Assembly (NCBI GenBank): GCA_030424645.1
Contig: JAUHWP010000012.1
Span: 1-41,772, forward strand
Reading direction: 5' to 3'
DNA from: Alphaproteobacteria bacterium
GTDB lineage: Bacteria > Pseudomonadota > Alphaproteobacteria > Rhodobacterales > Rhodobacteraceae
DNA length: 41,772 nt
In this document: piece after piece, positions 5,625 to 6,230 of the stretch
How positions within the stretch are numbered: position 1 is the first letter of the stretch
Layout of the letters: every line of letters begins with the position of its first letter
The notes under the pieces: model-generated
Database searches by the model: none
What the model was told of the DNA's origin: nothing
The model's input: only the letters and a program-made list of their open reading frames with translations
Translations under genes and position numbers: made by a program

Positions 5625-6026
5625 TCAGAAATCCCAGTCCTCATCCTCGGTGGCGACGGCCTTGCCGATGACATAGCTTGATCCCGAGCCCGAGAAGAAA
5701 TCGTGGTTTTCGTCCGAGTTGGGCGACAAGGCCGACATGATGGCGGGGTTCACCTTGCAGCTGTCTTCGGGGAAGAGCGCTTCGAAGCCGAGATTCTGAA
5801 GCGCCTTGTTGGCGTTGTAATGCAGAAAGTGCTTAACGTCCTCGGTCAAGCCCAACCCGTCATAGAGTTGTTCGGTATAGCGCGCTTCGATCTCGTAGAG
5901 GTCGAACAGAAGCGCGAAGGCAAAATCCTTGATTTCCTGCCGTTCGGCCTCGGTCACGGGACACCAGGGGCGGAAATCGCCATGGTTCACGCACCCGGGC
6001 CCTCCGCCCGCGGTCGTCGTTGTCAT
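5625..6026 (-). pseudogene. nrdF: 3' fragment of ribonucleotide reductase beta subunit (nrdF) fused to a cobalamin riboswitch leader
   Basis: From about residue 25 to its end the reading matches the C-terminal third of class Ib ribonucleotide reductase small subunit Nrd[58 protein letters not shown] and the terminal DEDWDF that docks on the large subunit. Full NrdF is about 320 residues; only 133 codons are open from the ATG at 6026, and the helices with iron ligands and the radical tyrosine are missing. The first 24 residues ([20 protein letters not shown]...) do not resemble NrdF. The ATG sits about 6 nt after the riboswitch end; the only SD-like GGAG lies inside the aptamer. It is most likely a deletion remnant. 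An intact frame and an apparent promoter leave open that the peptide is made. Confidence 0.75.
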
Positions 6027-6031
6027 GCGTT

Positions 6032-6192
6032 GGCAGGTCTCCTGGCTTGCGGCTCTTGCGCCTTGGCCCGCCTTCCTGGTGACTGTTGCACCAGTGGTTC
6101 CGGGCCTTGGCTTGCCGCTTACAGTTGCGGGGGCAGCGCCGGAATTCCACCGGCTTCCCTTTTCACCCACGAGGCGACTCGCAGGCACCAAA
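6032..6192 (-). ncRNA. Cobalamin riboswitch 1 (minus strand, upstream of the nrdF fragment)
   Basis: Read on the minus strand it contains the expected elements in order: 5' GGTGCC, a GGGAAGCCGGTG...CCGGCGCTGCCCCCGCAAC core, ACCACTGGTG (B12 box region) and the closing CCAGGAGACCTGCC. This is a full-length adenosylcobalamin-type aptamer. Cobalamin binding normally lowers expression of the downstream gene. Here the closing strand also contains the only GGAG available to the downstream ATG, so control would be translational. The 195-residue ORF of the track that crosses it is a translation of the RNA element and not a protein. Confidence 0.93.
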
Positions 6193-6200
6193 GCAACATC

Positions 6201-6230
6201 ATATAGCGTCACCGTGCATTAATCTGTCAA
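6201..6230 (-). promoter_or_regulatory. Sigma-70-type promoter driving riboswitch 1
   Basis: On the minus strand TTGACA (6230-6225) is followed after 18 bp by CTATAT (6206-6201), with overlapping TATATG one base further. The predicted start would fall a few bases before the 5' GGTGCC of the riboswitch, which fits a transcript beginning with the aptamer. A good consensus -35 in front of a gene fragment suggests the transcript is still made. Confidence 0.5.

Follow-up and report, generated by a model that had tools for sequence, protein, structure and literature searches.

A cobalamin riboswitch on the minus strand of the window, the whole stretch of 41,772 nucleotides analysed here, is followed within ~60 nt by the tail of NrdF and by nothing else of that protein. 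The question raised by this locus is how such a control region came to stand before a fragment of a ribonucleotide reductase subunit and whether the fragment still has a role. The initial annotation had proposed a deletion within a B12-repressed class I nrd operon, and this was strongly supported by the intact relatives, which identify the operon specifically as class Ib nrdHIEF.

The NrdF remnant and its control region

The last 110 residues of the frame matched the NCBIfam NrdF profile at positions 215–324 of 324 (E=1.3e-53), PF00268 at positions 212–281 of 281 and residues 214–324 of PDB 8j4x, which are the last 111 residues of a solved NrdF structure. The remnant ends in ATEDEDWDF and a stop exactly as intact NrdF does, and the earlier assignment of this stretch to the NrdF C terminus with its DEDWDF tail was thus confirmed by all three matches. 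Against the full-length class Ib model TIGR04171 it scored 144.8 bits where the cut-off is 355 and covered positions 208–316 of 316. The closest tail was that of Aquicoccus porphyridii NrdF (94% identical), and the same-genus copies were 79% identical. The metal-ligand motif DEAIHG, which in intact relatives lies ~25 residues upstream of the breakpoint, is missing from the window, and the carboxylate and histidine ligands and the radical tyrosine expected of a class Ib NrdF were not found in the remnant. With this last ligand motif absent no cofactor site is left, in agreement with the earlier reading that the metal and radical sites are gone. Matches to NrdH, NrdI and NrdE were also searched in the window and none was found, so that it holds no class Ib nrdHIEF operon.

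The open frame containing the tail spans 6212–5625 on the minus strand. Its openness 5' of the NrdF tail carries no coding information because the reading is open through the aptamer too, up to 6212. A product of 133 residues had been proposed, running undamaged from an ATG to the natural stop; the frame is indeed open, but this ATG (6026) sits inside the 3' part of the aptamer, has no start codon at its place in the relatives and is not the start of the operon.

Table 1. Features of the riboswitch–nrdF locus in the window
Feature	Position	Strand	Evidence or remark
NrdR-like box 1 (CAACTATATATTGACA)	6225..6240	-	overlaps the presumed -35 hexamer TTGACA (6230-6225)
NrdR-like box 2 (ACGCTATATGATGTTG)	6194..6209	-	overlaps the presumed -10 (6206-6201); 31 bp from box 1
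Cobalamin riboswitch aptamer, intact	6015..6207	-	RF00174, model 1-189
GGCGGAGGGCCC leader element, directly 3' of the aptamer	5997..6008	-	near-invariant in Rhodobacteraceae nrdHIEF leaders
Proposed deletion junction, nrdH leader joined to nrdF codon ~217	5952..5962	-	two-block and base-level alignments
nrdF remnant, last 110 codons and stop, including docking tail DEDWDF	5625..5957	-	NCBIfam, PDB and PF00268 matches

The aptamer scored 128.8 bits with RF00174 of Rfam (E=3e-32, cut-off 31.5 bits) across the full model, and the riboswitches preceding intact nrdHIEF of relatives scored 114–135. The riboswitch is therefore intact, as had been noted before, and its folding and its response to B12 have presumably been retained. 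The leader folded alone gave z = -0.75. The two hexamers, TTGACA-N18-CTATAT, overlap both NrdR-like boxes and are conserved in relatives. A generic sigma-70 promoter scan of the window returned no promoter here, and we therefore infer the promoter role of these hexamers from their conservation; the promoter proposed in the initial annotation was upheld on that ground, together with the boxes kept in relatives. The box pair scored 31.0, whereas ~1000 segments drawn at random from the window reached 28.5 at most. It was found in 29/29 relatives examined, the spacing being 31 bp in 27 of them and 30 bp in the other 2. Tandem boxes with integral helical spacing are a mark of NrdR regulation, and NrdR is encoded in the genome (C143), so the locus has the signature of a predicted member of the NrdR regulon. 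The GGCGGAGGGCCC element could fold as a hairpin whose loop contains GGAGG.

The junction and the intact operons of relatives

The arrangement of a riboswitch before nrdHIEF was searched in relatives, and intact operons were found. The same-genus genome G012 (locus L026) carries a complete operon in the order riboswitch, nrdH, nrdI, nrdE and nrdF, together with a divergent riboswitch and two gbcAB-type genes, which is the neighbourhood seen upstream of the remnant. A whole nrdF was present in 2/20 other species of the genus, and among the 80 best named NrdF relatives 68 had a B12-riboswitch motif within 600 nt 5' of the leading nrd gene, several of the remaining 12 being cut by a contig start. 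In the window the divergent B12 riboswitch (6335–6535, plus strand) stands before genes related to glycine betaine monooxygenase gbcA/gbcB, a pairing also seen in L026, L062 and L066.

When the window was aligned with L026, the homology fell into two blocks, 5988–8940 of the window matching 11324–14257 of L026 and 5629–5930 matching 7517–7815. The ~3.5 kb that separates both blocks in intact operons is missing from the window, and the same break was obtained against the named Rhodobacteraceae loci L061–L099. At the base level, the leader homology extends past the GGCGGAGGGCCC element to about CCCGTG and the NrdF homology starts at GTG/CTG-ACC-GAG-GCC. The micro-homology at the junction is a few bases at most, and in the alignments to intact relatives the breakpoints share no long repeat. 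The locus is thus collinear with both ends of its intact homologues while the middle is absent; nrdH, nrdI, nrdE and NrdF residues 1–216, the metal/radical site included, are gone. These findings together make it very probable that the locus is a deletion remnant, a pseudogene left by one ~3.5 kb deletion in a riboswitch–nrdHIEF operon.

All residues of the remnant occur among 80 intact NrdF proteins, the relative-rate counts of the remnant against three neighbours were balanced, and its dN to the nearest intact copy (0.04) was similar to the dN between intact copies. The tail shows no excess of amino-acid change, which suggests that the deletion is probably recent. Continued selection on the fragment is less likely than a recent deletion because the partner protein is absent.

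The genome is a metagenome-assembled genome (MAG), 91.6% complete and in 208 contigs. Two large subunits of ribonucleotide reductase were found in it, both of the B12-dependent class II (NrdJ_Z above its cut-off; PRK07562 at 2238 bits); the initial annotation had expected one such enzyme. CobN of cobalamin synthesis is encoded as well, and no core MetE match was obtained in the genome. Searches of this assembly returned no class Ib NrdE, no NrdI and no NrdF other than the remnant, so that no full nrdEF was found, and a second nrdEF copy could have been missed in a fragmented MAG of this completeness. The presence of two class II reductases, CobN and NrdR, with NrdE, NrdI and another NrdF absent, suggests that the lost class Ib operon was probably a dispensable backup.

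The ancestor would have had NrdR boxes and promoter, B12 riboswitch and nrdH-nrdI-nrdE-nrdF in the order known in Rhodobacteraceae, and its B12-independent class Ib reductase would have been turned on under scarcity of coenzyme B12. A single deletion, which began in the leader a few tens of nt short of the nrdH start and ended at nrdF codon ~217, would have taken away all enzyme-making capacity, a loss that would be tolerable in a cell retaining two class II enzymes and cobalamin biosynthesis. The riboswitch would now govern an RNA encoding an NrdF tail of at most 110–133 residues with neither a metal site nor a partner.

Damaged copies elsewhere and alternative explanations

A second case of loss was found in G426 (locus L171), which belongs to another genus. 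Its order is riboswitch, nrdH, an NrdI–NrdF fusion, nrdD and nrdG, the riboswitch and nrdH being intact, and NrdI codons 1–14 run in frame into the final codons of NrdF (L171 5378–6053). A relative, G313 (locus L217), carries the full nrdHIEF-nrdDG with NrdD and NrdG 97% identical, and the two differ by one deletion of ~3.4 kb. Both G426 and the window have lost the interior of the operon under an intact riboswitch with the NrdF tail left; G426 keeps nrdH, the in-frame fusion and nrdD, whereas the window has no nrdH, and the deletion in G426 is independent of that in the window. Since nrdD starts 2 nt past the retained nrdF stop, the riboswitch of G426 still precedes nrdH-nrdDG, the latter encoding a class III reductase. 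The two cases suggest the riboswitch–nrdHIEF operon as a recurrent target of internal deletion. A broader reading, that Rhodobacteraceae class Ib operons under riboswitch and NrdR control repeatedly lose their enzyme genes through clean internal deletions and keep the control region and nrdF end because the control region is re-used for downstream genes (nrdDG in G426, perhaps the iron transporter here), appears improbable.

Other damaged copies were also seen. In G155 (L173 5275–5481) a frameshift splits nrdF in a riboswitch–nrdHIEF operon that is otherwise complete. In G147 (L174 5057–5229) a decayed NrdF tail pseudogene adjoins ABC transporter genes after a B12 riboswitch, and an intact nrdF is present elsewhere in that genome.

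It is improbable that the junction is an artefact of assembly or of a mixture of strains and that the real cell carries an intact operon. The junction was read from one MAG assembly of the species, the MAG is fragmented and the contig is atypical for the genus, but no long repeat common to the breakpoints might have misled a k-mer assembler, fragments of nrdE, nrdI or a second nrdF were found nowhere else in the assembly, leader and tail are both nearest to the same relatives (Aquicoccus and Roseovarius), as one operon predicts, and the GC content and tetranucleotides of the contig fit the genome. The contig may have been mis-binned, as the full-length MetH that it encodes is missing from all 20/20 genus-mates; its composition, however, argues for accessory DNA. 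The absence of this MetH from genus-mates and the finding of metH adjoining nrdEF on a related Pseudosulfitobacter plasmid suggest that the contig is probably accessory or horizontally acquired DNA. The metH of the window (9748–13519) consists of two overlapping ORFs, likewise in L063, L082 and L105, and a third B12 riboswitch (9013–9225, plus strand) precedes a small ORF and this gene, which is unexpected before a B12-dependent enzyme.

The control region might instead have been kept for read-through into the siderophore-type ABC transporter genes at 5398–1841, which would place them under B12 and NrdR control. These genes lie on the same strand after a gap of 226 bp, no terminator-like site was found on the minus strand, and no intrinsic terminator was detected between them and the remnant. 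A conserved pairing of riboswitch and ABC genes was not seen, however, the ABC genes are of the iron type, and in L064, an intact relative whose operon has iron/heme neighbours, the gene after nrdF is convergent; this explanation is very unlikely.

Least likely of all, with hardly any probability left to it, is a working small protein, a docking-tail peptide under B12 and NrdR control that blocks the class Ib large subunit as a dominant negative: the frame is open to the natural stop, its tail residues all match intact NrdF and an in-frame GTG at 5990 has GGAGG ~10 nt ahead of it, but the genome shows no NrdE or whole NrdF as a target, the ATG sits within the aptamer, relatives do not conserve the GTG and a homologous short gene is absent from 397 family genomes and 80 named loci. 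The earlier suggestion that such a peptide could compete with whole NrdF was thus not supported. The short frame was also considered as a conserved independent gene, which would have spoken against a deletion, and no relative carries it; the other shortened NrdF matches of the family were contig ends (G139 and G444), the frameshift in G155, the decayed tail in G147 and the deletion in G426.

Meaning of the remnant and comparison with known systems

We regard the deletion remnant as a case of ordinary gene loss; its regulatory setting is known, and its breakpoint is tidy and probably of recent date. It would capture the moment when a bacterium that has genes for B12 biosynthesis drops its B12-independent reductase and is now tied to class II enzymes, its regulatory region not having decayed yet. 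It is also a warning for annotators that a perfect riboswitch need not mean a functional gene. A literature search of partial coverage returned no description of such remnants; the regulation was already known and the remnant itself is new.

The riboswitch–nrdHIEF operons of Rhodobacteraceae, represented by Aquicoccus porphyridii (L061), Roseovarius sp. (L062) and G012 (L026), have the NrdR boxes, promoter, riboswitch and leader element in common with the window, as well as the end of nrdF with its stop, and the divergent riboswitch–gbcAB arrangement is common to the window, L062 and L026. They differ from it in having nrdH, nrdI, nrdE and NrdF residues 1–216. Cells that combine a class I reductase under a B12 riboswitch with a class II enzyme are already known. 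As described in PMC4991794 (citing Borovok et al. 2006), a coenzyme-B12 riboswitch controls the B12-independent class I reductase nrdABS of Streptomyces coelicolor, where class II NrdJ is also present; that operon is class Ia and intact, whereas the operon of the window was class Ib and has been deleted.
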